NCBI GenBank assembly: GCA_910890315.1
Contig: CAJVGD010000004.1
Span: 1 to 64,000 of the forward strand
Direction: 5' to 3'
Source of the DNA: Serendipita indica DSM 11827
Taxonomy: Eukaryota; Basidiomycota; Agaricomycetes; Sebacinales; Serendipitaceae
Length of the DNA: 64,000 nucleotides
Below, piece by piece: positions 11,919 to 42,800 of this stretch; positions within the stretch are counted from its first letter, which is position 1, and the number at the start of each line of letters is the position of its first letter. Both the position numbers and the translations under genes were made by a program. The notes beneath the pieces are model-generated. The model was not told where the DNA came from. It saw only the letters and a program-made list of their open reading frames with translations, and did not search any database.

Positions 11919-12300
11919 GGATGAGGTGGTGCACGCACCATTGTTGTAGAAATCAGTCTCTTTCTAACTTACGTCTAGTGGGCTTATTGCGAAATGCGCG
12001 GCAATGCATGACAACAGCTTGACGCTCTCCTCTGTCGTCTCTCTCTCCCTCTTTTATTTCAGACCCTCCTATCCCTATCTACACTCTGCTCTTTGCATCT
12101 CATACGAGTAACGGTTGTCGTGTCGGTGCTCTGCCTCTCTTCGCCTTGGCTCCCTAGGTCGAAACAAACTCTCGTTGTCGATAGAAGATGGCGAGTATAT
12201 ACCGCTTCTCGTTATATTTACATGGTGATCTGAGTGAATGACATTGGAGAGGTGTGGCCCTTGATTGTGAATACTCTACGAGCGCATAAGAGGCCTTAAA
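11919..12300. other. 3' flank and spacer, no gene seen
   Basis: Downstream sequence of the GPI-protein gene with pyrimidine-rich stretches (12020-12080). No reading frame with family signal is present. It ends at the edge of the inverted-repeat arm. Confidence 0.4.
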
Positions 12301-12551
12301 CACGCTCTACCGATTGAGCTAACCGGGCACTCGGATGTCTGGACTGTCGAGTGAGCACCTATAACTCACTCATCTTGACTTCTATGCCATCGACGCACTT
12401 GACTATTACAAACAATCCTAAATCTAATACTCATCTCCGCCTCTCTTGCATTCTTCCGCCCACCACCTGGTCTACAGTACTCTTTCTCTCCTCATTATTG
12501 ACAAGGCACCCCTTTATTGATTATCTACGATAAGCATCCATTCCATCACTT
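12301..12551 (-). repeat. Inverted duplication, left arm, with 5' half of tRNA-Lys
   Basis: About 251 bp whose reverse complement matches 17365-17618 closely, including the 5' flank of the tRNA-Lys gene. The first 28 bases (12301-12328, reverse complement) are the acceptor and D-arm half of that tRNA. Similarity stops abruptly after GAGCGTG, so the anticodon and T arms are missing and this tRNA piece is not functional. Small differences between the arms, including short indels, show the copy is not recent. Confidence 0.85.
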
Positions 12552-12810
12552 TGAAATTTGAATACCAGCCATCCCAATAAATTTTCGTCTCCGCGTCCCA
12601 GCCTCTGACCAACGCATCTTGGACCCGACCACGACCAGTCTTTTATCTCCTTGCTTATATATGTTTGCCTTTATCATCATATTGATTTAATCATGAGATG
12701 AGACGGCTTTTGTCTTCAAGGCCCTTGTGCCATGACATTGCCATGAACGACTGAGCCCACTAAGCATCTCTTCGCTCGCTTTCCCGGGGCTATGAGCCGA
12801 TGACAATGTC

Positions 12811-13350
12811 CTACATTCCGTCATGACCTTTTATCGAGCTTAGCTCCCAAGAGCTAGTTTTGCGTATCGAGCAACCGTCTGACCGTTGCTCGCTTCTCTT
12901 TGGCGGCCACAGACGTAATGGCGAGCGTGCCATGAAATAACTGCCATTCTTGGGGTCTAGCTGGGGACACTCATCAGCTATATATGACTCCATTAGCGGT
13001 CGCAAATGTGCCCAGATCGAGTGATCTGCAGATTGCGAGTCTTTCATTCCTCGTGTCGAACACTTAGTATGAGCAGTGGTCCATAACGCGCATTGTCTAT
13101 GATGATGGATGACTTCGCGAGGTAACGACCAATTACTCCCCCTCTCAACGTGGGCAGCCGGGAAAGGAGTTTGACCCTCGTGTAAATTCATGCCGACTAT
13201 GGGTGATGATAAGGTACAATGCCGCCACCACAAGTTGTCAATCCGCCTCCGAACTGTGAAACGAATAGATAGACAATCTCTCAGTTCAGCAGTGGCCATG
13301 CGATTATCGCTTTCACTCTCATGAGAACTATTGAAAATATGAGAAGCCAT
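12811..13350 (-). CDS. Uncertain single-exon open frame, 179 aa
   Basis: Uninterrupted minus-strand frame beginning MASHIFNSSHESESDNRM with a genuine ATG at 13350. It has no signal peptide, membrane helix, low-complexity run or family motif that I recognise. Its length is near what chance can give in sequence of this composition, and it lies in a repeat-rich, gene-poor stretch. I list it only because it is the longest frame between the GPI-protein gene and the Copia fossil. Confidence 0.15.
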   Translation of the reverse strand: MASHIFNSSHESESDNRMATAELRDCLSIRFTVRRRIDNLWWRHCTLSSPIVGMNLHEGQTPFPAAHVERGSNWSLPREVIHHHRQCALWTTAHTKCSTRGMKDSQSADHSIWAHLRPLMESYIADECPQLDPKNGSYFMARSPLRLWPPKRSEQRSDGCSIRKTSSWELSSIKGHDGM

Positions 13351-13565
13351 TGTACAGAAACCATTGTGCGCTACTCCTCGTCAGTGATCGAGGCCAAACT
13401 CGTTCTCCTTGGCTTCGTTCACCGCGCTGTTCTGCGCAATCACGCCTCCACCTGCCCTGCATGCAATCAGATGTATATCAGCAATTGAAGGTGTTGAAAG
13501 TGCTGTTCTGAAGTAGTCTGCGACATGCGCCGTGGCATGGGCGTCGCAAGATCCATGGTTGCGTA

Positions 13566-13689
13566 GCTCGGTGAGGGAGGAGTCCAGGGGGCATGTAGAC
13601 AGACACGGTACCTGTGGCTCGGTGAGGGAGGAGTCCAGGGGGCATGTAGACAGACACGGTACCTGTGGCTCGGTGAGGGAGGAGTCCAA
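13566..13689. repeat. 51-bp tandem repeat, about 2.4 units
   Basis: Units start at 13566, 13617 and 13668. The first two are identical over their length and begin GCTCGGTGAGGGAGGAGTCC; the third is cut off after about 22 bases. Because 51 is a multiple of three, the repeat keeps a minus-strand frame open (13381-13731, start ATG 13731). In that frame it encodes a 17-residue unit, LTEPQVPCLSTCPLDSS. I do not recognise the 116-aa product. Confidence 0.85.
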
Positions 13690-14439
13690 GGAACAGAGAC
13701 TCCAACCGAGGCTACGGCCGACTATGTACATGACTGTCTACTACATGATTATCAAGTCATAACAACAGGTTGCCCTCAAAAGAGCACGAAACAAAGTGGC
13801 AAACGTCATGAATATACCACTGCGTGGTGGAATTAGCCGAGGGCAGAAATCCAACGTCCACCTGTGCGAACGCCGCTCACGAGCATGGTGATGAGAAATA
13901 TGAGAGATTGGAGGACGAACATATCAAAGTCTTCAGTGCGTTTGATGAGCTCCTCGAGACCTTTACCTCGAGTGGAAGAGCTGAGAGCCTCGTTTAACCA
14001 CTGCACTAGACGAGATGGTCATGTCACAGTACCACTAAAGGTTAGACATACTCGTAATTTTGACCAGAAATTGGGGGAACAAACTGCAGGGTAGACGCTA
14101 AACCTTGCATGGTCATAACTATGCCTTTCGACTGCCTAAGGCTTGGCCCAGAGAGACGGCACAAGGCGATTTGACCTGAATTGCCTTATGAGGGTCATTA
14201 TAAGGCACATCATAATCAGAGTTCATTATCCTGAATACATGATAAGGCACCTTATACAATGCCTGATCTGGCTCATTATAATGACAAACGTCCTCATCAT
14301 TGACCTCAACTGGCGCATAATAATCATACATAATGGCCACAATCATATCGCCATAATCATACAAACAAACCCAAGTTCGAGACTGGAGATGCCCTCACAC
14401 CTTCGAACCACCAGCTTCGCTGAAATTTATCTCCTTTGC

Positions 14440-14991
14440 CGTCTGAATACCACTTAGAGTGTTTGGCGTATCTTCATCCTCACTAGATCTTGCTTTACGT
14501 TTGCGAGAGATGGGGTTTTTTTTTAATCTGTATTTATATAGCCCCTCTGCAGGTCCGAAGGACCTATGCAGGGGCTCCAGAGAAACAAAATACATTTGCT
14601 ATCTAAAAGGAGTCGGTGAGGTGTGAATGGAGCGACGCGTTCCAGGAACACTAATCGCCGCACCCATAGCGTCATCTGCGTATGACGGGTACCACCAGTT
14701 TCGTCTACTCCGATTCATCTTGGCGCCCCGCCGCGTCAGGTCCATGGCTCGGGCCTCTCTGCCTTTCCATTTGCTGAGGTGTATAGGGTGAGGAAGAAGA
14801 CCGAGCTTCTTGCAAAACTGCGTAAAGAGGTGCTTGGCGAGCGGCCTTGTGAAGATGTCGGCTGGGAAAGGCATGGGCATATTCTCCCACAAATTTGGGC
14901 TCTGGAGCGATGTTTTAGAAACTTGTGTGTGCAAATGGGTCGCCTTGCGGCTCGACAAAGGACTGCTGGGCAGGTTGGAAACAAAGGGCAT
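14440..14991 (-). mobile_element. Copia (Ty1-like) LTR retrotransposon fossil, 3' end
   Basis: The minus strand encodes the very end of a Copia polyprotein (ADIFTRPLAKHLFTQF, the usual end of the RNase H part). Next comes a stretch that looks like a short 3' LTR, starting near 14598 with TGTATTTTG. It contains a strong hairpin and a TATATAAATA box. The LTR's far end, near 14440-14470, is uncertain. No reverse transcriptase, integrase, Gag or 5' LTR was found next to it, so only a small remnant is left. It is broken; age cannot be judged without a second LTR. Confidence 0.65.
14541..14575. repeat. Hairpin inside the Copia LTR-like stretch
   Basis: Near-perfect inverted repeat: GCCCCTCTGCAGGTCC, a GAA loop, then GGACCTATGCAGGGGC, with one mismatch in the stem. 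It lies directly beside the TATATAAATA box of the LTR-like sequence when read on the minus strand. That position suggests it sits at the base of the promoter or in the transcript leader. Confidence 0.8.
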
Positions 14992-15536
14992 ATGTTGGCT
15001 ATTGGTGAGATCGAGTCACCAAAGCATGAAGAGTTATAGGAAAGCGGGAAGAAGCATACAAAGTCATTGAGTAGTGATCCTGAATAGTTGCGTGCTGAGC
15101 GTCGTCAGGACGTAAGAGCTTGGAGCGGTGTTGAAGCTTTTGGAGCGTTCGTTCGTGTACAGGGTTGTATTAGAAGGCTGCAAAATAGATTTATTCTCAC
15201 TTGCTGTTGAGCTGAGCAGTGGAAGAGAAACGCACTGGCAGAGTGTCCTTGACTGCCTGTGACCGTTGTAGATGTACGACTTATGGTTTGAAATCAGTTA
15301 TCTGCGTCCTAATGCGCATCAGAGTACACCGCAACGCTCATTCCAGAAGGTACGACGGCGGCGCCTATGATCATCAGCCAGATAGACGCATCGGCTCTGG
15401 TGAAAGGATTGAATCATATTTCGTTCATTAATCGAGAAGGTGCACAGAGGTCAAGATTAATCAGCTCTGATGTCCATAGAATGTACAAGGTGTTCACAAC
15501 GGGTTCATAGAGTGGGACCGCATCGAGTTTGAGAGG

Positions 15537-16475
15537 TCAGTCCTCGATAATTACTGGTCCAACAGATGGAGAGGCAAGTTGGGAAGGGAGGATACCGAAT
15601 GGAGACGACAAATTGGAATAATTACTCTCATCAGAGTGCGCTCTGTCCCTATGTCTCACCAAGACCAGCTGCCGTGGTAAAGAGGCACGTTGGGTCTCTG
15701 TATGTGTTGTCGGGTTGCCATATGCCTGGTTGCGCGCGATGTTGGATCGATACAATGGAGAAGCATCGTGTAATCTGATCGGATGGGATGAGGACGATGG
15801 AAGAGAGTGCCAATCCTATTCGGACGTTGGAAAGAAGGCCCGTTTGTATCCTGTGTGAAGTCAAGCCATCGTGAAAGAGAGGTGTGCCGTGCATCATCAT
15901 CTTGAGTAATTGGAGTAGACGCAGGGGAATCGAGCTAGCGATTGCTGCAAGAGGTCAACTTCGCCAATCAACTCTTCCGACATGGAGTCCTTGAGTGCAG
16001 AACTTGTTGGCTGAGGTTTCTCCTGTGATGTTCGTAAGCAAGCAGCACACCTCGCGCATGGTCGTTGGGTGCATACCTGTGGCCGTACGGGGACAGGGGC
16101 ATACCTGCACGCCTAAAGGTGGCGATCAAAATGATGAGGTGGATCAGGAGAGCCAACAGACAGTAGATCAGCCACTGACGAGTCGTCGCCTAAGGCGTCG
16201 GGCGCTGGCGTAATGCACTCGGGTGGCAGAGCGAAAGAGGAAAGGCGAAAATAGCCCTTTAGAGACTCGAGTGTACTCCAATCATTTCGCCTCGGGTCTA
16301 TGAGTACAGGCAACGACTCGCAAAGGGTCTTGACTCGAGGAGTGCTACGGAACGCGGTGAAATCTATGCCTAAAGAGTAAGAATTGACATAGTAACTCAC
16401 ATGCGCCACGTCGAGAAGCTGACGCGCCACCATAGGCTGGCCCACTCGACGGTAGCGGACCATATGGTGTCGCAT
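15537..16475 (-). CDS. Possible small membrane protein, unresolved
   Basis: Several minus-strand pieces look coding but could not be joined with certainty. They are an N-terminal part with RVGQPMVARQLLDVAHVSYY (about 16360-16460), an Asp/Pro-rich middle (SVADLLSVGSPDPP), a hydrophobic helix LLIHLIILIATF (about 16110-16150), and an end LASPSVGPVIIED at 15537. No family was recognised. The 5' end and upstream region recur as a truncated copy near 47.2 kb, which argues that it was once a transcribed unit. Confidence 0.25.
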
Positions 16476-16870
16476 ATGGCCGACGACCTCTCGCTACCGT
16501 ACGGAACCGAAGTAAATAGAATGTTAATTATGGGCAAGGTTAGAGTCGACGGGATTCGACGTCGACACCTCGTCATCCGTCCGCTACTCCGCACCAGCCA
16601 ATCGTCTCCCATCCCCTATGCCCTCTGCTCGCTGACTCTCATATCCGTTTTATATCCGTAGATATTGCAAATGACTCGATGGGGTCTCGAAACAGTATAT
16701 AAGGACCGATTTTTGCGTGTATATTGCCCTAGTTCTGAATCTGCTCTCGTTCCGTCCTAACCGTCTCGCAAACTCTCGCTTAATACTATATTCGCTACGT
16801 GAGTTGTACATTCCCACCCGGGCCTTCCACCCGTTAGACGAACCCCCGCGCGATTCGTAACAAGGAGGCC
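16330..16870. repeat. Dispersed repeat with TATA box, copy 1
   Basis: About 540 bp that aligns along its length with 47205-47730 in the same orientation. Shared landmarks are GTACGGAAC/GTACGAAAC, CCAGCCAA, CATCCCCTATGC, GACTCTCATATC and a TATATAAGG/TATATACGG box at about 16697 followed by a T run. It could be the promoter and 5' end of a duplicated gene, or a solo LTR fossil. I cannot decide between these because the ends are not sharp. Confidence 0.7.
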
Positions 16871-17364
16871 AAATGTGTCGGTGGAGGTTGTTGGGCGCAA
16901 GAGATAAACGGCGAGGAGAGAAATAACTGCCTCAATGACCCTCCTCCACATATTGTCATTATTCTTAGCCAGATTAAACAAGGGACGCAGTGCGGTAAAG
17001 GTCGTGGCAGGGTTTACAATGAAGGGCGCCTAAAACTATATAGATTTGGGCTCAATCCGGTCTGAACGGTAAAAGTTGGTTCCATAGAAGTAATGACCGA
17101 AATACAGCTCGGAAGAGTACTAATTCGTATCCAAAATGTGAACGAGGGGGACGATATAGATACGCAGAACTATCAACAATTCCCCATTAATGGGTAGCGC
17201 AGACGTGGATGGTACCGACTCTTTTATGCCCTTGGACAGCCTCGAATCCTAGAGACTGGCATTGATCTAATTCCTCCTTTGGTTAAGTCCGATGGTTTAG
17301 TCGCGCTCTCCTTGTTGGCATTAGTCTTTCGCAAGGGCCAGTAGTTTGCCTTATGGCGCTGTAG

Positions 17365-17618
17365 AGTGATGGAATGGATGCTTATCATAGATAATCAATA
17401 AAGGGGTGTCTCGTCACCAAGGATAAGAGAAAGAGTACTGTAGACCAGGTGGTGGGCGGAAGAACGCAAGGGAGAGAGGCGGAGATGAGTATTAGATTTA
17501 GTATTGTCTATTATAGTCAAGTGCGTCGGTAGCATAGAGGTCAAAATGAGTGAGTTATAGGTATTCACTCGACAGACCAGACATCCGAGTGCCCGGTTAG
17601 CTCAATCGGTAGAGCGTG
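17365..17618 (+). repeat. Inverted duplication, right arm (5' flank of tRNA-Lys)
   Basis: Reverse-complement partner of 12301-12551. It begins AGTGATGGAATGGATGCTTA and runs into the first 28 bases of the intact tRNA-Lys. About 5 kb separate the arms. Confidence 0.85.
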
Positions 17619-17671
17619 AGACTCTTAAAAAGGAAATCTCAAGGTTGCGGGTTCGACCCCCGCATCGGGCT
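17591..17671 (+). tRNA. tRNA-Lys (anticodon CTT) with 8-nt intron
   Basis: The acceptor stem GCCCGGT pairs with ATCGGGC plus T at the 3' end. The D arm is TAGCTCAATCGGTAGAGCG and the T arm is TGCGGGTTCGACCCCCGCA. The anticodon stem TGAGA/TCTCA encloses CTCTT followed by ten purines. A seven-base loop needs only two of these, so about eight bases (AAAAGGAA or equivalent) must be an intron after position 37, the canonical eukaryotic site. Total 81 nt, 73 nt after splicing. Confidence 0.9.
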
Positions 17672-18074
17672 AGTTGCCTTTTTGACCCTGGGTCGTATGC
17701 TTTTTGCCGAGGACTCCTGCTAAGCGAGTCGGTTATTTTACATTCTGAAACAATAGAGTACGTCATGACTCGTCTTTTGAACTTTATAAAATTTTTTGCT
17801 TCGGCGCTTGGAGGCCAGGCGATTACCAGCCAGTGGCCAAGAGCCAAGGGCCCAATTTCACTCAGAGATTTCCTGGGCGACTGTACTGAGGAGTCGTGCA
17901 TCGCTTTTGCTACCTCAAACGCATGGAAACGGTCTTGCAAAGCTCCCTGATCCAGACTCTCGCGGCTTCTACGGCCTACACTTTTTTCAGGTGGAATTCC
18001 GTTTGTCCGAAAGACCCACTGTCCAGACCACAATAAACAGGTTTACCTGAGAACCTTACAACTTGATCCCCGCC
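17672..18074. other. Spacer between tRNA-Lys and F-box gene
   Basis: About 400 bp without a convincing frame or repeat. It contains the presumed promoter of the F-box gene at 18075. Confidence 0.35.
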
Positions 18075-19061
18075 ATGTCGACACCCTCTCAGCGTGTTCC
18101 CGTCGAGCTCTGGGAGCATATTTTGCTCGATGTCGTCTACGAACTCTTTCTTCTCGACCTCGAGCATGTCGGAGACGTTGACCAAAAGTCACTCTCGAGG
18201 CGTTTCCGGCACGAGGATGCCGCTGACGCAGCGTTGACGTACGAACGGGGTCGTATCACGCTCATGCTCGTCTGTAAAGCCTGGAAAACCTTTGTGGATC
18301 GTACAACGGGTGGATGGAAAGAGGCCGACAGCCGGTCATGGGACTTTCCGCTTCGTCTCCTTTTAGCCACTCGCATCGACCTAGCCTGCACGGCGCCCTT
18401 TAAACCTGCATATTTACTTGGGATAGAGCACCAGGCACGTATATTGACGATACGTACGACGACAGTCAGTATAGACGACCTCCTCGTCACCTATGGCGCG
18501 AGCTTTCCCCACGTCTCCACCCTCGACCTTCGCCACGCTTCCTCCGTTCTCTCTCCGACGGGCGGCATGTCCGCACCCAACGGCTTCTTTGCTACACTCG
18601 CTACCCTCTTCCCCCACCTCCAAACTCTCTTCGTCGAGGTCCCCGCCTCGGATACAACCTCGGACATTCTCTCCCTCCCCAACCTCACGCGGCTATCCTA
18701 CGTCGTCGTCGGCCAATCGCGTCTTTCTGATGGGAAACGGGCGGCAGCTCTCGCACTCTGGGAGCTACCAAAGCTGCAGCATCTCGATATCCAGCCCGTC
18801 GGAAGCACCTGCGACTGGAGCCTCGTAACGGACGGATTACGCGCGTGGGGATCCGAGTTGAAAACACTTTGCTTTGACGCGCGATTCCCGTGTCCCACTG
18901 GTATTGAGATTGGCCGTGAGGATTGGACGGCATGCAAACGGCTCATCTATACCGACCACGGCCGAAACGTCGTTCGAATAGGCCGAACTAAAGAGGCTAA
19001 GCAGATTTTGATACCCTCTAGTCATCCGTTTCGTGCATTCCAGAGACTCGTTTGTGTATAA
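18075..19061 (+). CDS. F-box domain protein
   Basis: Single-exon gene, 328 aa, starting at the first ATG of the frame (MSTPSQRVPVELWEHILLDV). The N-terminus is F-box-like: VPVELWEHILLDVV, then LMLVCKAWKTFVDRTTGG around residues 65-80. The rest has leucine-rich spacing (VSTLDLRHASSVL, LPNLTRLSYVVVG, LPKLQHLDIQPVG) typical of fungal F-box proteins with a degenerate LRR or beta-helix substrate region. The family works as substrate adaptors of SCF ubiquitin ligases; the substrate here is unknown. It ends at a TAA at 19059-19061. No introns were needed. Confidence 0.75.
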   Translation: MSTPSQRVPVELWEHILLDVVYELFLLDLEHVGDVDQKSLSRRFRHEDAADAALTYERGRITLMLVCKAWKTFVDRTTGGWKEADSRSWDFPLRLLLATRIDLACTAPFKPAYLLGIEHQARILTIRTTTVSIDDLLVTYGASFPHVSTLDLRHASSVLSPTGGMSAPNGFFATLATLFPHLQTLFVEVPASDTTSDILSLPNLTRLSYVVVGQSRLSDGKRAAALALWELPKLQHLDIQPVGSTCDWSLVTDGLRAWGSELKTLCFDARFPCPTGIEIGREDWTACKRLIYTDHGRNVVRIGRTKEAKQILIPSSHPFRAFQRLVCV

Positions 19062-19302
19062 TCGTATTTAATCGGTGTCGTGCGTTCAGGACTGGCCGTG
19101 TATATTCCTCGCGAAATAGACCTTTTTGCCCACTGGGGTTCCTACCCACCCACCACCCGTCCGTGCTCATCTGGAGAACCTCGACGATTTCATTTTCATA
19201 TAGTCGGAGCTCACCGTCGACAGAGGGATTGCTCCAGAGGACCCGAACATAGTAACCATCGTAGGGTGGGAGCGTGAGCTTGCGCCCGCGTCGGGTTAGG
19301 TC

Positions 19303-20209
19303 CTACAGAGTAAGCCCAAAGAAACCAAAGGAGCTGTTGGCACCCACTGTGGTGACATAGTCCATTGGAAATGACCCCGTCTTGTCGCCAATGGTTGTAT
19401 AGTACCACTTGTCTTGCCATTTCGAAGTCACTTCAACAATCTGATCTGCCTCGAGGGAAACCTCTTGTGGCGTACGAGCAGTGTAATCCCATAGTACGCG
19501 CACCTGCAGCCCAGGCGTGGCAACCCAGGCAGGTTGGGCCCTCTCGACAATCTCGCTCGAAGGTACTGGGTTGTCGTTTTGCCCTTCAGGCGGGAGGGAT
19601 TCCTGGAATGGTCAGAGAAATACGACAAAGCACCCAAACTTACCACAAAGTTGAAGGGAATCATGCCGACGTGGTGTGTATCATTCTCAGTGTAGCTTCC
19701 CCATATCCACCAGCAGGACGGCTGGTACACAACACCCATGACTTGACCAGCCTCAAAGGCGATTTCGTCGTCTGCTCGTGGCTCATGGCGCCACAAGGCG
19801 CGCACTTTGGGTCCGAGTACAGGCATCTTACAAGTCAGGTCTAGTTAGTGACACAATGTTTTTCACTCACCAGTCGTTCGTCTAGTTTGAAATACCCTTC
19901 TTGGCCCTCTGTTGTCGCGCCCAACCAATACTCGCCGGAATAGCGCTGAACAATCCTGACGATATCCCCCTTTTGCAGCGTCAGCATCGGAAGTTTCTTG
20001 GTTTCCTCGCTGTGGTCTGGCGCATAGAGTGGCGGTGGGTCGTTGATGGGGGCTGAAACGGCGACATAACTCGTGTAGAGCACGGGAGCATTGAGCAGCG
20101 GCTGCATTCGGCCAGAAGGGATCATATCTGAAACGGTATCACTTTGTAAAGTTTCATTTCCTTGCAATTCTGGCAGGCTTCTGTACGGAGGGTTAAGGAC
20201 GCCTGACAT
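19303..20209 (-). CDS. Triple SH3 domain protein
   Basis: Adaptor-type protein of 273 aa made almost wholly of three SH3 domains. Exons 20209-19871, 19826-19644 and 19602-19303; both introns (44 and 41 nt) are phase 0, and each exon carries one domain. SH3-1 is at residues 48-112 (LTLQKGDIVRIVQRYSGEYW), SH3-2 at 121-174 (VRALWRHEPRADDEIAFEAG), SH3-3 at 209-261 (VRVLWDYTARTPQEVSLEAD ... GSFPMDYV). SH3 domains bind proline-rich ligands in signalling and actin/endocytic complexes; the specific role is unknown. Intron 1 uses an AAG-type acceptor (TTGTAAG) with CACTAAC as plausible branch site. Confidence 0.8.
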
Positions 20210-20532
20210 GATCAGCGTCAAGTTTTGAGTTTGGACTCCTTCACGACGACCATGAGTTCTATGTTGCCTTCTAGTGCCAGTAAAATAGAAATAATCCTGA
20301 CCCTTGCAGTCGGGAATTCTGGACCCGTGCAGTGCAGTGGGAACCGTCTGCAGGTTAGACTCAACCGAGGGTTCCGCAACAGAGAATTGCAGCGACTGTT
20401 GCTCCGAAATGCATTTTCCGTGATTGTTGCCTCATATCCCTTTCTATCTCGTCGGTTATAAAACTTGCGCGGTTCCGCTTTTGTTGTGCTTCCCATTCAC
20501 AGACTTCTTGAACCCTCCCACCACGGCCCTCA

Positions 20533-22571
20533 ATGCCCAAACCCGCCAATAATCGTCCAAGAGCAGAGTCGGATCCGCTCAGCAAGTGGCTGCAGCCCAA
20601 CGGTGTAGAGACTCCCCAGGAGCGCGAGGCTCGTCTCCACCAAGAGGCCCAGGCCAAAAAGATTAGCGACGCCATTGACGAGCAGCTCCGAAGGGAAAAG
20701 GCAGAGCTCAGCAAGAAGAAAAAGGAAGTTCGAATCCTCCTCTTGGGTAAGCCATTGTCTGGCCTGTCTCTGCCCGTCTTGGTTTCTAACTGACAATAGG
20801 TCAATCTGAAAGCGGTAAATCGTGCGTATATTCCATGAATGGCATCCTTTGTGGCACCCCGCTCCGCCGTTGCTGATGGAGAAGCGTTGAGCCGCTAGCG
20901 GCCCTTCGCAACTTCGTCCAGTCGCGGATCCTCAATGGTCCCCCGTTTCATCAAATATCTTCATTATCTCGACGACGGTGACCTCTCCGTCATCATCATA
21001 AAGGGATATCACCTTTATATCTCCGCATTTCCCACCATGAAAGGGCCCGGAGCGGTCTTACCACGTCCCCTATGTCAAACAATCAATTACTGACATTTCA
21101 ACAGTACTACGCTCAAGCAATTCCAACTTCTCTACGCACCGTCGTCCTTTACCACAGAGGCGCCTGCGTGGCGGCCAATTATTTATCTAAACCTCGTCCG
21201 CTCCGTCCGGCGGATCCTCGAAGTCATCACTCTCGCAGAACTCGACTATGATTATGACGACCGCGCGTCTGTCCTTTCCTCACCAGCCCTTGACGGGCGG
21301 CGGCCATCCATCAATCTCAACATCTCCGACGCAGAGATGCACGCCTTTTCTTCCCTTCGTAGCACGCTCTCACCACTCCTCGTGCTTGAAGATCGCCTTA
21401 TCAATCTTCTCTCGGACCCAGATGAAGAATCCGGCGAGGCGACCCATTTCAGTGAGCAGGCCTCGCCCATCTATCCCACGGGTCAGAATCACGTCGGCGG
21501 GAGAAGCAAAGAAGTATGGGTGCAAAATGGGCGCAATGCTGGTGGATGGAAGCGCGCATTGGGCAAACTCGGACGAAGGCGGGATACACTCTCGAGCAAC
21601 GGCCACGCCGGTGGCACTGTCAACTGGACCATGGACCCTGACGACCCGATTCACGTCCTGAGACAATGTCTCCCTGACATGGAAGCTCTCTGGCAAGATC
21701 CACGCGTCCGCAATGTATTGCGCGCACGACGGATCCGTCTGGAGGAGAGCCCCGGATTCTATCTCAACGATATGCGAAGGATCGTGTCGAGTTCGTATGT
21801 TCCCACCATTGACGACGTCCTCAAGGCGCGGCTCAAGACGCTGGGCGTAATGGAACATCGATTCTCATTGGATGGTCCGATGAGTGGCGGTGGTTCGCTC
21901 TTTGGGAGCAAGATTAACCCGCATGCCGAAGTCGAGTGGGTTATCTACGATGTGGGCGGAGCGCGTAATCAGCGACACGTCTGGGCCCCCTTCTTCGACG
22001 ACGTCCAAGCGCTCATCTTCTTGGCGCCCATTTCGGCGTTTGACCAGGTTCTCACAGAGGACCCAAGTGTCAATCGCATGGAGGACAGTTTGTTGCTGTG
22101 GAAGAGTATCGTGAGCAACAAGGTGCGTACTCGTGGTCCAGACAGGCACACGTGCTGATAGTGTGTATAGTTGCTGAAAAATGTCAATCTCGTGCTGTTC
22201 CTCAACAAATGTGATCTACTCCAACAAAAGCTGGAGGCGGGGACAAGGTTGGCGACGTACATGACGAGCTACGGCGACCGACCAAATGACTTTGAGAGTG
22301 TTTCTAAATGTACGCCCAAGCTTATCTTCTTGGATGCCTCGCTAACATGAGTGTAGACTTCCGCAACAAGTTTGCCGCTATGCATCAAGCGAACACGCCA
22401 AACCAAGAGCGCGACTTGTACATCCACATGACGTCTGTCGTCGATACTCAAGCGACGAAGAAAATCATCACGAACGGTACGTGCATTTTAAGTCGTTTGA
22501 GAAGGATGCTGATTGAGCTAGTCCGTGATATCCTCCTCCGTGACTCGCTCAAGGGCACGAATTTGCTATAA
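20533..22571 (+). CDS. Atypical heterotrimeric G-protein alpha subunit
   Basis: GTP-binding signalling subunit at the plasma membrane. Six exons: 20533-20746, 20800-20821, 21105-22122, 22171-22309, 22357-22476, 22522-22571; 520 aa against about 350 in typical G-alpha. The P-loop GQSESGKST spans exons 1-3. Switch I retains Arg and Thr (DDVLKARLKTLG). Switch II reads DVGGARNQRHVW where the family has DVGGQR, so the catalytic Gln is Ala. The guanine motif is FLNKCDLL; the TCAT motif is changed (TSVVDTQATKK). A large Gly/Ser/Arg-rich insert sits in the helical domain (about residues 150-230). There is no Gly2 for myristoylation and no C-terminal CaaX or CGLF ending. It is probably slow at GTP hydrolysis. 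Its last exon region is duplicated near 33.1 kb. Confidence 0.9.
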
Positions 22572-22783
22572 TCGATCCTAGATATTCGAAGTTTTTTTAT
22601 GTGCTAGTATCTGTTTGCTCGACTCTGTATTATTTGCGCAGATACCCGCCCCTCATCATCTTTTCGTTCCACACGTGTTGTTTCTGCTCATTTTCATTCA
22701 TTAGTTTGAGATATATATAATTTTCTTGCATTCTCCTCTTTCGCCAAATTTCGAGGTTACTTGTGCGTACATAGTGACATGTG

Positions 22784-23900
22784 CTATGCCGGCGAGAGTG
22801 GCCTCAATACTTTGACGAGGTGACCGTCATTTCCTGGAAGATATTGTTCGTACCCAGCATTGGTTGTGATTCTGAGCTCGCGCAGAGGCGGTCCATCGGG
22901 AACAAGAAGCTCATTCTCTATGAGAGAGAGTACTTGCCAGATTAATCTCTGTATGGAGGCATGCAGCCAGAATGGGTACGCATCATCGTCACTCGAGTCT
23001 GGCAACCAATCTTCCATGTTCCAGTCCACAGGGTGAGGTATTGCAAGATAGGTCAAATTCTTGAAAGCTTTAAGGCAAGGTATTGCATCCTGTAAAGGAT
23101 CTTTAGAGAATTTACTTTAAACTTGAATACTTGCCGAAAACGTGTCTTGGGTGAACGGTCCGACGATGCCTAACTCTTCTAAGTGAGGGGAATAGCTGCT
23201 TATATCTACAACCAAAGTGAGGCGCCGTCAATGTGAGAGTTCATCCGCACCTCCGACTGCTGTAGCAGACAATGGCGCCCACCAGTAGAAGATACGAAGG
23301 TTCGGTAGTTGTGCCAAAGCTTGAAACAATGAGGAGCAGTCATGATATTGATCCTTATTGCGTAATCTTTTGACTTTGAGCTCGACGAGGTCTGGACAGC
23401 ATAGGACAATTCCAATCCAGTCGGGGTCAGGGATCCAAAGGCAGCGGAGACTGTTCAACTTGGCATCGTTGTGAGTAGATAGAAATGTTTTGAGAGAGCT
23501 TGGTCCATTATAAACGTCTTCCAAGTCGAGGGACTCGAGGTTTGGACATGCACTGACTGTCTTCCAGAAATATTGCGGCAAGTCCAGACCGCCTTCCACA
23601 TACACGACGGTTCGAATGCGTCTTGAGTGGGTAATCAAGTTAGAAAGGCATCGGAGGAACCCGACTAGGCACACCTAATAGCATGACAGATTAAACGGTT
23701 CTCGTGGATTTCGCAACGCACTTGAAACGGAGGTCTGTGTGGAAAATCGGGTCGAAGTTTGAACAGGACCTTTTGAAAGAGAAGTGGTATGGCGATTTGC
23801 CGAGTCTTTTACTAACGAGGCTGAGAGTTTGCATCCCCGAGCGCCCAACATAGCAATAAAGCTCGTAGATAATGTCGTAGGGCAGATTCTCGAGGAACAT
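22784..23900 (-). pseudogene. F-box/LRR gene, copy A (one frameshift)
   Basis: Start ATG 23900 with a clear F-box (ENLPYDIIYELYCYVGRSG, LQTL-type helix QTLSLVSKRL). The frame then changes by one base: after SKRLG the continuation IAIPLLFQKVLFKLRPDFP is in another frame, without splice sites between. Copy B keeps this point intact. Downstream exons encode LRR-like pieces (FWKTVSACPNLESLDLEDVY, LRCLWIPDPDWIGIV, LAQLPNLRIFYWWAP) and the C-terminal exon ends PLSPA at 22784. It lies tail to tail with the G-alpha gene, and the pair is duplicated together. Confidence 0.7.
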
Positions 23901-24019
23901 GGGCGCACTGGGAGATTGGGGTGTCTTTGAAGGAAGTAGAGTCGGGATCAAGTCGCGACGGTCTAGGTGGCAAATGCAGTAGTGAGTCACCTGGGACACG
24001 AGAATCAAAACCAAAATGT

Positions 24020-25176
24020 TTATTTCTATGACAAAAATACCTCAGGACTTTATCCAACCAAAACTGTACCTGTGCCACCTGTTTTCATGATAAACCCGGA
24101 TTGACGATTATCATATTATCATATAATATCCCCAAATTTAACATATGTCTGACCATCATAACTTGTGAGCACCACTACTGGTCTGGACATTTGCCCAACG
24201 GGTCAACCTTTGCTTTTGGTTAGTCAACTAATTGTAGAGCGTCGAGCCCTAGAATCTATTGAACTGCTCGTCATGAAAAGCCAGCCCTCTCAGCTGAGCT
24301 ACCTCTCGTGCCGACTCCAATTCCTCGCCTTTGACGACACTTTCAGACAGATCATCACACTCAAGGCTCTCCAAGCGTATTCAGTTTCTAGCAAGCCATA
24401 GTAATACAACGTTCATCGAATCTAATCCCGTTCTATCAGAAAGAGTGTCACGAGCGGGGATCCCCTGCTTCCCCGTTCGGATCAAGAGGAAAAGTCGAGA
24501 ATGCTAACCAAGATCTGGAACAAATGGTCGTCGGGAGCCATCTGGCAAAATGCTGGCCGTGACCTTTTCGCCAATATCCAGTTGATTACTCACCGAAATA
24601 TCCTCTCGGAAGATATGATTTCTCGGCTGCGTACGTCATAATGATCTTCGGTGCGTGCCTTGTTTGCTATACTCCATGCCGCTGGCCCGACTCTCGTAGC
24701 AGGCACCATTTGTAGCTCCACCTCAGGCTTCCGGCCATTTTTCACTTACCAGCATGAGATAACATGTCATAGTGTAGCGGTATTGACGGCGACATAAGCG
24801 AGTCTAGGATCAACTCTGTACTCTCGTCGAGTCCTGAACCAAGTTTCCATCCCTTTCTATCTGTGCTTGCCATAAGTGACCCATCTTGCATGAGAGGTGG
24901 CCCAAAACCGGAAGAATGGTACATCCTTCCGCCTTGAAGATGTTGAAATCCTACGTCCGTCGCCGTATGGTACAGCAAGCTATACTCCCTTCAACGAGAA
25001 CAAACGGGCGACTTCTCGAATACAACACATGAGCTTGAACCCTTTCAGTCGGTTGAGGACATATTTCGAAAGGTTTGCTGGGAACCTCGTTGTCAATGAC
25101 CAAGTTTCCGTGGAAGAGCTCATATCGCTTCTTGGGTTTGTAACGGCTCGGTATACGTTGCGAGGTACGACCATAC
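24020..25176. other. Gene-poor spacer with a tRNA-like fragment
   Basis: No convincing protein-coding signal on either strand in about 1.15 kb. On the minus strand, 24315-24234 contains TAGCTCAGCTGAGAG, a good tRNA A box and D arm. It is followed by a poor B box (GGCTCGACGC), but the anticodon and acceptor stems do not pair. This may be a decayed tRNA. The remainder looks like unconstrained sequence. Confidence 0.35.
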
Positions 25177-25898
25177 CTATACGTATCCGCCCGTCAGTCT
25201 AGGCTTGTAGAAGGTCGAAGGCGAGACTGCAGGCGCCGGGGTAGAAGACATCGATTGTCCTGGGAGAGGCGCAGGAAAGTTGTATCAGTCGGGATTAACG
25301 GCCGAGTATGGTGGTCCATTGTTATTCCCTAGCACACCCAATTCGCTTACGCCGCTAAACGGCGTCGGTGCGCTATCGTATCGCCTCCATGGCCGGGCGT
25401 CGACGAGGAAAAGGTGGGTATGTCGTTGTACAAGCTCGATTGTTGACCTCCAGCTGTGAGGAATGGGTTTGGATTTTGATCGACGGGCTGGTTGGAGACG
25501 ACTTGGCCGGTGGATGTGAACAGGCTGTTGGGATTATCGTATGCGGGTTGGTCGTAGTATCCTCCGTATGGATTGTCATAGCCTAGTCCAATATATGCGC
25601 CAGCTCGGGTTGATCCAACAAGCCAAGCATTGCAGATTGCGCTGGGTGCCAGCTGGTCTAGACTGACAACAAATGTGAACATACCAGAGTTGTACCCATA
25701 TCCAGCACCTTCAGTACTATGAGGCGTATAGCTGCCCTGCAAATACGCTCCCCGGTTGTTGGGAGCGGGGTTGCTCGGTGGTCTTGGCGGAGGCGGAGGA
25801 GCACCAGTATTATTCGGATTATTTACATTCCATGGTGAACCAGATTGGTTCTGACGCGGCGGGTACGGATCCTGCCGATGGTCGAACGGGTTTTCCAT
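25177..25898 (-). CDS. Proline/Asn/Tyr-rich protein, unrecognised
   Basis: Start ATG 25898 (MENPFDHRQDPYPPRQNQ). The N-terminal part is disordered and rich in Pro, Asn and Gly (TGAPPPPPRPPSNPAPNN, GLGYDNPYGGYYDQPAYDN). An intron probably follows YNSG (donor GTATGTTCAC near 25684). Coding-like text continues toward the 3' end in other frames (APTPFSGVSELGVLGNNNG, then SMSSTPAPAVSPSTFYKPRL), ending GGYV with a stop at 25177-25179. I therefore infer two or more unplaced introns or a frameshift. No catalytic motif is seen. Such N-termini occur on fungal cell-surface and vesicle-trafficking proteins, but nothing here allows a function. Confidence 0.4.
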
Positions 25899-39802: not shown

Positions 39803-42800
39803 ATGCGATTTACTAAACCAGCCTGGGTGGCTCATCATGGTCAGTATTCAGCGGCTCCTGATATGTCTGAAACCCCGCGACAAGCTGCGCTCACATCCGG
39901 CCATTTGGACGGCCTCTAGACAATCACGAGCCGACAAAGCGAGTATCCATCTTCTCTGTCTCGGTTCATCCAGATGGAAGTCGAGTTGCAACCGCCGGTC
40001 TAGGTAAATGCCGTTTTCGCAAACTCTACTTGTAAAGCCGACGTGTTGACGACGAGTTTGTCGCTGTTTATAGATGCGAAAATACGAATATGGGCTACAG
40101 CGCCCATTTTGTCTGCGCAGATGGAAGCTCAGGGCGTCCCAAAATCCCTGTGCACGTTGACGATGCACAACGGACCGGTCATGGTTGTTAGGTGGGCGAG
40201 TAATGGAAAGTGGCTAGCAAGTGGGAGCGACGATACACTGGTCATGATATGGGACTTGGACCCGTGCGTAGGCTTCTATACAAGTTTCGTCCACTAGCTC
40301 ACAAGGGCTCGGTAGCAACGGTGGCGGCAAAGTCTGGGGGTCGGATGATATCAACATTGAAGGATGGAAAGCTCTTCGTCGCTTGACGGGACATGAGAGT
40401 GGTCAGTCATTTGCCAGCCCTTGTGCTCTCGCTCACGCTTTTCCCAGATGTCGTCGACTGCGCTTGGGCACCAGACGATCGCTATCTAGCCTCGGTCGGT
40501 CTGGATTCTCGCATCTTCATCTGGTGCGGCTATACCCTAGGTACGACATGTAGTTTACTATATGCCTTACGCTGACCTCTTGGCTCTAGAATGCGTCCGA
40601 CGATTAGATGGCCACCAAGGGTTCGTCAAGGGAGTTTGCTGGGATCCAGTCGGAGAGTTTCTCGCGACGCAATCAGACGACAAGTCGGTCAAAATCTGGC
40701 GCTCGACGGATTGGACCCTACAAGCGACTGTCACCAAGCCGTTCGAAACCAGTCCAGGAAGCGCCTTTTATAATCGTCTCAGGTAGGTGTACTCTCAGCC
40801 CTTCTTTCTTCATTTCTGAGAGTACTACAGTTGGTCTCCAGACGCCTCCTATCTCTGCGCCTCCAACGCGATGAACAACAATGGCGCAGTCTTTGTGGCT
40901 GCCGTTATCGAGAGAGACACCTGGAACTCCAACATGTCGCTTGTCGGGCATGAGAACACTGTCGAGGTAGCTGCTTACAACCCACGTCTCTTCAAAAGAG
41001 ATTCCTCCATTCCGCTTCCAGCCAACTCCCCCGCAAAACGATCAGTTGTGAGTGTGAGTGACCTGGTCGACGACGAACCTCCGGAGACGGTCTTTTCTGT
41101 CGTCGCCTTGGGCGCGGATGATCGCTCCATCTCCGTATGGCGGACCACCGACGCCAGACCACTCGTCGTCGCAAAAGAGGTCTTTGACCGACAAATACTC
41201 GATCTAGGCTGGGCTTGGGATGGACAAAGCATTTGGGCTTGTAGTAGTGATGGTACTATTGCCGTCCTAGACTTTTCAGTCTCCGAGGGAGCTCATGGAC
41301 GCAAGGGAGAAATGGAGGGCATCACGTCTGCACAAGAGACCAAGGATTACATCAAGAGCTTTGAATTTCCATGGCCTCCACCCGTCGAAGCAAACTATGC
41401 AGGTTATGCGAACGGTTACCAACCGAATGCACAAGTTCAATATCAGCACAATGCCTATGCTCCAGCGCCGTATCAAGACTCTGGATATGGCGGCTCGCGA
41501 CCAGGTATGCCAACGCCGATGCAGTCATCTGTTGGTGTGGGCCATGCTCCACCGCCCATCAACCAAGCTCAAAAAGTGACCATGACAAAAAGTGGCAAGA
41601 AGCGCATTCAACCGACGTTTCTTGGAGGTGGCTCGGCGGTCATGACTAGCTCTGGCGCCATGCCGCCTCCAGCGAGTTCGCCAATGAAAAATGGATATGC
41701 ACCTTCACCGATCGGTGCACCTGGAGAAGCCCCGCGTGGAGGGAGAGGGATGGATTGGGCGGCAGACAGTTACAATCAGCCTAGCGGCAGTGGATCTCGG
41801 AGCTCCCGGTCGGGTTCGATGTCACGTCCAGCGGATGGTCGTCCACCTGGACATGGATTCCAGCTACCTCCTGGGTCGCGGGTCCCTGGGACGGGTGAAG
41901 CGCGTGTGCTGATGCAGCCTCCCAATGTCAGTCCTCGGCGACAAAATGCACCAGTGGGCGCGGGCAATTATCCATATGTTCTTGGTCTAGAGGTACCAGT
42001 GGTTCGATCCCACGTCTCGGCGGGTCATCCGGGCGATTTGGTCATTGAAGGTCGGAACCCAGATGAGCCGAACGGTAAGCAATTATTTAATGACGCGAGT
42101 AGTGGCTGACACGTTCTAAATAGCACCCACGGAAATTGTCTGCGCACACGGGTCTTCTATCCTCTGGGCCGACTTTGTTCCCGCGAGAGTCCTCGCTGTT
42201 GTCAAAACACCTGCCCTTTACGCCGCAAGTCTGGAAGATTCGTCTATCATCGTCTATACCCCTGCTGGAAGACGGTACGTAGTACATGACACTGATATTC
42301 GCGTCTAAACTCGCTTAGTGCTATGCCCACCCTTTCCCTCGATGCGCCCATCTCCATTATAGCCGCCGCTGGCAAATACCTCATGGCAATATGCGTTAAC
42401 GGGTCTTTCCACACCTGGTATGTGCCTCCTCCGGCTATTGTTCATTGCTGAGCAGTACTTAGGAACGTTCACACCCGGACCTCAACCATACCTCCCACCT
42501 CTATCGCCAATCAGGTTCATGGTGGAACCGGCGGAATCACGCAAGCGAAAATCTACGAAAACGGCGTGTCTCTCATCACGCTCGCCTCTGGCACCTCGAT
42601 TGCTTGGGATCCAGATCTGTCCGCTTGGGTCCGACTAGCTGAAAACTGGTGGCGACAATCCACTTCTCAGCCGCCACGAACACCGTCGAGACCAGGTCGA
42701 CAATCCGAGCCAGGCCTATCGCCTATCGCTGCGCATCATACTGGATCAGAGGAGACGCCGTTGAGTGCTGCTCTGCGCTTGGGCGCTCTTGAGACGAGGC

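Follow-up and report, generated by a model that had tools for sequence, protein, structure and literature searches.

Does a G-alpha subunit that lacks the catalytic glutamine of switch II represent a single deviant gene, and can such a protein still hydrolyse GTP? G-alphas generally have a glutamine at this site. The question was raised by a gene in the window, the 64,000-nucleotide stretch of Serendipita indica DSM 11827 analysed here (positions 1 to 64,000 of contig CAJVGD010000004.1, hereafter C4), in which an earlier note had read DVGGA instead of DVGGQ and had proposed a constitutively active or regulator-dependent G-alpha.

Structure of the G-alpha gene in the window

The gene model, computed from the DNA alone, comprised six exons with GT-AG introns at positions 20533-22571 of the plus strand and encoded 520 residues. 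Residues are numbered after Gai1; positions other than 42, 178 and 204 were counted along the alignment from these or follow the usual numbering. The features of the gene are as follows.

20533..20746, plus strand: exon 1, from Met1 to the first base of the P-loop Gly, without a Met-Gly start
20800..20821, plus strand: exon 2, the bulk of the P-loop GQSESGKS
20802-20804 and 20805-20807, plus strand: P-loop codons in exon 2, CAA for Gln at position 41 and TCT for Ser at position 42 (Ras Gly12)
21105..22122, plus strand: exon 3, encoding the helical domain with its insert as well as switches I and II
21829..21846, plus strand: switch I RLKTLG, with the catalytic Arg (178) and the Mg-binding Thr (181) retained
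21871..21930, plus strand: insert specific to the window gene between switch I and switch II; the 178-to-200 spacing is 40, against 26-28 in eight sister genes
21949..21975, plus strand: switch II DVGGARNQR; Ala (21961-21963) replaces the catalytic Gln, and Gln (CAG, 21970-21972) replaces Glu at position 207
22171..22309, plus strand: exon 4, with NKCD at 22204-22215
22357..22476, plus strand: exon 5, with TSVVD (the TCAT equivalent) at 22431-22445
22522..22571, plus strand: exon 6 and stop, C-terminus SLKGTNLL

Reading of the codons at 21949-21963 (GAT GTG GGC GGA GCG) together with the spliced model confirmed DVGGA, with GCG at 21961-21963 specifying Ala at residue 365. When the window protein was given to a spliced aligner the exon boundaries were identical, a result that serves as a self-test only. 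The protein matched the G-alpha profile PF00503 over positions 1-332 of 333 (E=8.6e-99; 331.3 bits against a cut-off of 48.8; residues 42-508), and the top-scoring PDB chains by sequence score were the alpha subunits of gustducin, Go and Gt/Gi. Analysis of the canonical G-alpha features revealed GK[ST], the switch I Thr, NKxD and the arginine finger; DxxGQ was absent (DVGGA), as was Gly at position 42 (Ser). The N-terminus reads MPKPANN and does not form the canonical myristoylation start MGxxxS, and no upstream Met was found in the open frame of exon 1. Extra-large G proteins (XLGs) have a large N-terminal extension; in the window protein the G-alpha profile begins at residue 42 of 520, so an extension of this type is absent. 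The further motif readings of the earlier note were also borne out: the P-loop, the switch I Arg and Thr and NKxD are retained (GQSESGKS, RLKT and NKCD), the myristoylation site is missing from a model that begins MPKP, and the TCAT motif is altered to TSVVD.

SH3-domain coding exons, identified by Pfam SH3 matches, lie directly upstream on the minus strand (19303-20209), divergent from the G-alpha gene. Downstream, also on the minus strand, is a candidate F-box gene at 23691-24041 (E=0.0023; 18.2 bits, cut-off 20.5).

A second copy on contig C40

We considered whether the Ala codon might have arisen from a sequencing error or a faulty gene model, or might mark a pseudogene. The observation that favours this reading is a frameshifted second copy of the gene on contig C40, which is near-identical and indel-ridden (24 mismatches and 29 gap runs over 2220 alignment columns, 26 of these runs being bases absent from C40). 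This copy reads GGCGGAGCG at the switch II site and carries the same codon, so a sequencing error there is unlikely, with the caveat that both copies may share reads. The flanks of the two copies were compared at two places (window 12000-13200 and 24000-25200) and match at 99% in each, and the C40 copy therefore looks like a redundant, unpolished or decayed copy; it was not counted as a gene. The window copy, for its part, has an open frame of 520 codons and regular splice sites, and its lack of the switch II Gln is common to eight divergent sister genes with 39-50% identity. On this evidence we regard error or decay as highly improbable and set it aside; the sister genes, described below, largely refute an artefact.

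The two flanking places and the gene between them fall within window positions 12000-25200, which correspond to about 249.9-263.0 kb of C40 (G000:C40). Window positions 40000-41200 had no such partner, and their second match was 194 bases only, on another contig.

Census of G-alpha genes in the genome

To place the gene among its relatives, its own genome (24.7 Mb in 55 contigs) was searched with PF00503. The search gave 59 exon matches, and 21 regions were taken, for which protein-guided spliced models were built and refined with group profiles; all are computed models without transcript support. This analysis revealed 20 G-alpha genes including the one in the window. A search with the window protein as query gave 57 matches, all of them within the 20 genes or the C40 copy; for large families, genome searches of this kind give minimum numbers. 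Two loci were left out of the count, namely the redundant copy of the window gene (L038) and a weak PF00503 match (L051, 23 bits) that was judged Arf-like, its P-loop DAAGKT being what we take to be an Arf-like signature. Second-pass models were used for C18_284, C40_1547 and C40_1550, in which the first-pass P-loop was missing or garbled. One stop, probably from a misplaced intron, falls in a variable helical stretch of the C40_1552 model and was entered as X in the tree. For C44_272, C44_703 and C44_1223 the N-terminus is uncertain, and none of these models begins with Met-Gly.

Eleven of the 20 genes retain Gln204 and nine do not. Two of the eleven depart from the usual pattern elsewhere. 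C40_1550 (L036, G000:C40:1549200-1552400) keeps the Gln, has Arg at position 42 (GTRGSGKS) and no Met-Gly, and looks degenerate; in Gai1 this substitution is reported to prevent activation (PMC3285607, in part). C40_835 (L045, G000:C40:833000-839500) keeps the Gln in a switch II that reads DVGGQKSQR and has Thr in place of the Mg-binding Ser of the P-loop.

The family expansion appears to lie on the alpha side, since the 20 G-alphas stand against just three RGS matches and three G-gamma matches, both counted by exon and both lower bounds. It may in part have come about by local duplication, given that one pair of Gln-less genes is arranged head to head (L043/L044, G000:C44:700500-708500) and that three Gln-bearing genes lie near one another on a single strand (L035-L037, G000:C40:1545000-1556000).

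A clade of nine genes without Gln204 and Gly42

The nine genes that lack Gln204 are the window gene, C6_1768, C44_272, C44_706, C44_703, C40_918, C40_1270, C12_240 and C44_1223, with Ala (three), Ser (five) or Thr (one) at this position. In a tree of the 20 proteins built without columns 41-42 and 204-207, the nine were set apart from the other eleven by a branch with bootstrap and SH-aLRT values of 100/100, and the state at position 204 required a single change. The tree is unrooted; that the change was a loss of Gln follows from the general rule for G-alphas and not from the tree. A long branch (1.16 changes per column) leads to the clade, and the relationships within the clade had little resolution for the most part.

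The codons at positions 41, 42, 204 and 207 were checked in the DNA of all 20 genes, the window gene included. In C44_703 and C40_1270 introns adjoin switch II, and codons 204 and 207 each lie whole within one exon. All nine clade members combine Gln41 with Ser or Ala at position 42, which corresponds to Ras Gly12. Of the eleven Gln genes, ten have Gly42 (Arg in C40_1550) and none has Gln41. Gln207 was found in 9/9 clade members compared with 1/11 of the others, the exception being C40_835, which also keeps Gln204. Thus, throughout the clade neither the Gly12 nor the Gln61 equivalent is retained. The earlier note had described one deviant protein with a single catalytic change. Its framing did not hold: the Ras Gly12 equivalent of the window protein is replaced as well (Ser), and eight paralogues carry both types of change. 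A private mutation of the window gene was therefore rejected, and because nine related G-alphas all lack both residues, the loss of Gln is an inherited lineage trait, as judged from sequence, and not a one-off mutation.

Several other features separate the two groups to different degrees. A Met-Gly lipidation start was found in 0/9 clade members (three with uncertain starts) compared with 10/11 of the others. The TCAT motif has lost Ala326 in 8/9 and retains it in 11/11; the Cys that precedes it varies in both groups. Positions 210 and 214, on the beta-gamma face, are changed in all nine. The large helical-domain insert that had been noted for the window protein was upheld as a long helical domain, one that all nine share; it is not exclusive to them, since their P-loop-to-switch I spacing (189-243) overlaps that of the eleven Gln genes (131-221).

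Other residues, those that hold the nucleotide among them, are conserved. K46, S47, R178, T181, D200, G203, R208, W211, N269 and D272 are identical across the nine, in an alignment of the clade that has 385 ungapped columns and full identity in just 57 of them. GTP and Mg binding looks intact on this basis, with Lys46, Ser47, Arg178, Thr181, Asp200 and NKxD all kept.

Nucleotide state and hydrolysis

The conserved nucleotide-binding motifs bear directly on a reading in which the clade proteins resemble the plant XLGs in being scaffolds, the fold being kept for partner binding and the nucleotide state being nearly irrelevant. The missing Met-Gly start, the long helical domain, the altered Ala326 and the rewritten beta-gamma face would all suit such a role, and there is a precedent in XLG2, which is described in excerpts of PMC8584482 as having a much lower affinity for GTP and as probably nucleotide-free in vivo. 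If the proteins were nucleotide-free, one or more of GKS, the switch I Thr, DxGG and NKxD should have been lost; all four are intact in 9/9. The conservation of these motifs appears to fit a scaffold less well than a GTP-loaded protein, and we consider the scaffold improbable.

The reading that we favour, at an even chance, makes the clade a GTP-loaded, hydrolysis-poor sub-lineage that works, by analogy, like the RND GTPases. Along one branch of the gene tree, the two positions that G-alpha and Ras proteins require for normal hydrolysis both depart from the other G-alphas (Gly42 to Ser or Ala, Gln204 to Ala, Ser or Thr), the GTP- and Mg-holding residues examined being kept. Such proteins would take up GTP, turn it over very slowly and be found mainly in the GTP-bound form. 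Because a myristoylation start is not visible and the switch II surface is rewritten, they would probably be controlled through expression, localisation or partners and not through the receptor, beta-gamma and RGS cycle. The published behaviour of mutants and of RND proteins, set beside intact GTP and Mg contacts, makes this the most economical reading. Gai1 G42V and Q204L are GTPase-deficient, and Ras Gly12 substitutions other than Pro are activating (PMC3285607, in part); RND proteins, which lack both Gly12 and Gln61, remain GTP-bound (PMC8305018, in part). The small number of RGS matches in the genome, at least three against 20 G-alphas, also speaks for this reading. The pattern suggests switches that stay on or that are turned off in an unusual manner. 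For the window protein, with its catalytic Gln gone and its nucleotide contacts kept, the earlier description as constitutively active or regulator-dependent is thus a reasonable reading; the state that it describes is common to the clade.

Not all of the residue data point the same way. The change at position 42 strengthens the hydrolysis-deficient reading, which is weakened by the strict retention of Arg178 and by the glutamines gained at 207 and 41. An arginine finger kept in 9/9 is unexpected if hydrolysis has been abandoned, although it may have a structural role, and the two glutamines, close to the nucleotide site, arise alongside the loss on the same branch and could compensate for it. 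Moreover, the effect of substituting Gly42 is not uniform in G-alphas, since Gai1 G42R, unlike G42V, keeps hydrolysis and cannot reach the active state (PMC3285607, in part). No measurement for Ser or Ala at position 42 combined with Ala at position 204 was found in the portions of the cited literature available to us.

These same residues are the basis for a reading in which hydrolysis is retained, the arginine finger being kept and Gln204 being replaced by a relocated Gln (207 in switch II or 41 in the P-loop) or by a residue that a dedicated GAP provides in trans, for which Rap and RapGAP are a precedent. The distribution of Arg178 (9/9), Gln207 (9/9 compared with 1/11) and Gln41 (9/9 compared with 0/11) would agree with such rewired catalysis. 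Position 207, however, sits three residues beyond 204, and we know of no case in which it reaches the attacking water. The one Gln gene that has Gln207, C40_835, also keeps Gln204, and Gly42 is lost from the clade as well. Furthermore, the long branch changed many columns, so the co-occurrence of these residues within one clade is not evidence of compensation. We hold retained hydrolysis, the main rival of the GTP-loaded reading, to be possible but doubtful. The more specific proposal of a second G-alpha catalytic design, in which the arginine finger is kept and Gln207 and/or Gln41, or a dedicated GAP, replaces Gln204, seems unlikely to us; if it were true, 9 of the 20 G-alphas of this fungus would be switched off in a way unlike the textbook RGS cycle.

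If the clade proteins are GTP-locked, they would be natural, long-kept G-alphas changed at two positions whose mutation overactivates Ras or G-alpha elsewhere, and the fungal cell would have to put up with them or exploit them. Should they have kept GTP hydrolysis, they would point to a new route to G-alpha catalysis. Either outcome would bear on the high number of G-alpha genes in some basidiomycetes.

Comparison with known systems

Similar DVGG[AS]R proteins probably exist in other mushrooms. No published fungal clade lacking both Gln204 and Gly42 was found in the open-access literature, among the matches listed, and the motif strings of the clade were not found there either. The clade alignment was also compared with two viral and prokaryotic collections, viral_contigs (134 pattern stretches, 0 confirmed) and genome_contigs (137 stretches, 0 confirmed), results that have no bearing on other fungi. 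Large G-alpha families with many genes, like the one described here, have been reported for Piriformospora indica (PMC3192844, in part) and for Laccaria bicolor (cited by PMC5065116, in part), and no mention of a loss of the catalytic Gln was found in the available sections of these two papers. In Flammulina all four G-alphas are called classical, with the switch II motif DXXGQ (PMC9030616, in part). The expansion of G-alphas in basidiomycetes is thus already published.

Compared with canonical fungal and animal G-alphas (PF00503), the window protein has the full profile match and keeps the nucleotide and Mg contacts; it differs in lacking Gln204, Gly42 and the Met-Gly start and in having a long helical domain, an altered TCAT motif and Gln in place of Glu207. 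Some G-alphas of plants, Dictyostelium and Naegleria are reported to depart from the catalytic motifs (PMC8584482, in part). In Naegleria fowleri, natural variation of the P-loop, discussed at and beside the Ras Gly12 position, plays a part in how nucleotide cycling differs (PMC9283941, in part), a likeness that is drawn on the P-loop alone and with an amoeba lineage. The plant XLGs are likewise naturally atypical G-alphas; their nucleotide binding is weak, whereas the nucleotide-binding motifs of the clade are intact, affinity being judged here by motifs alone. A parallel for the combined loss is provided by RND1-3, the atypical Rho proteins in which the Gly12 and Gln61 equivalents are both absent (PMC8305018, in part). 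In contrast to the clade proteins, RND1-3 are small and farnesylated and have no G-alpha helical domain, and the likeness is one of analogy and not of family membership.
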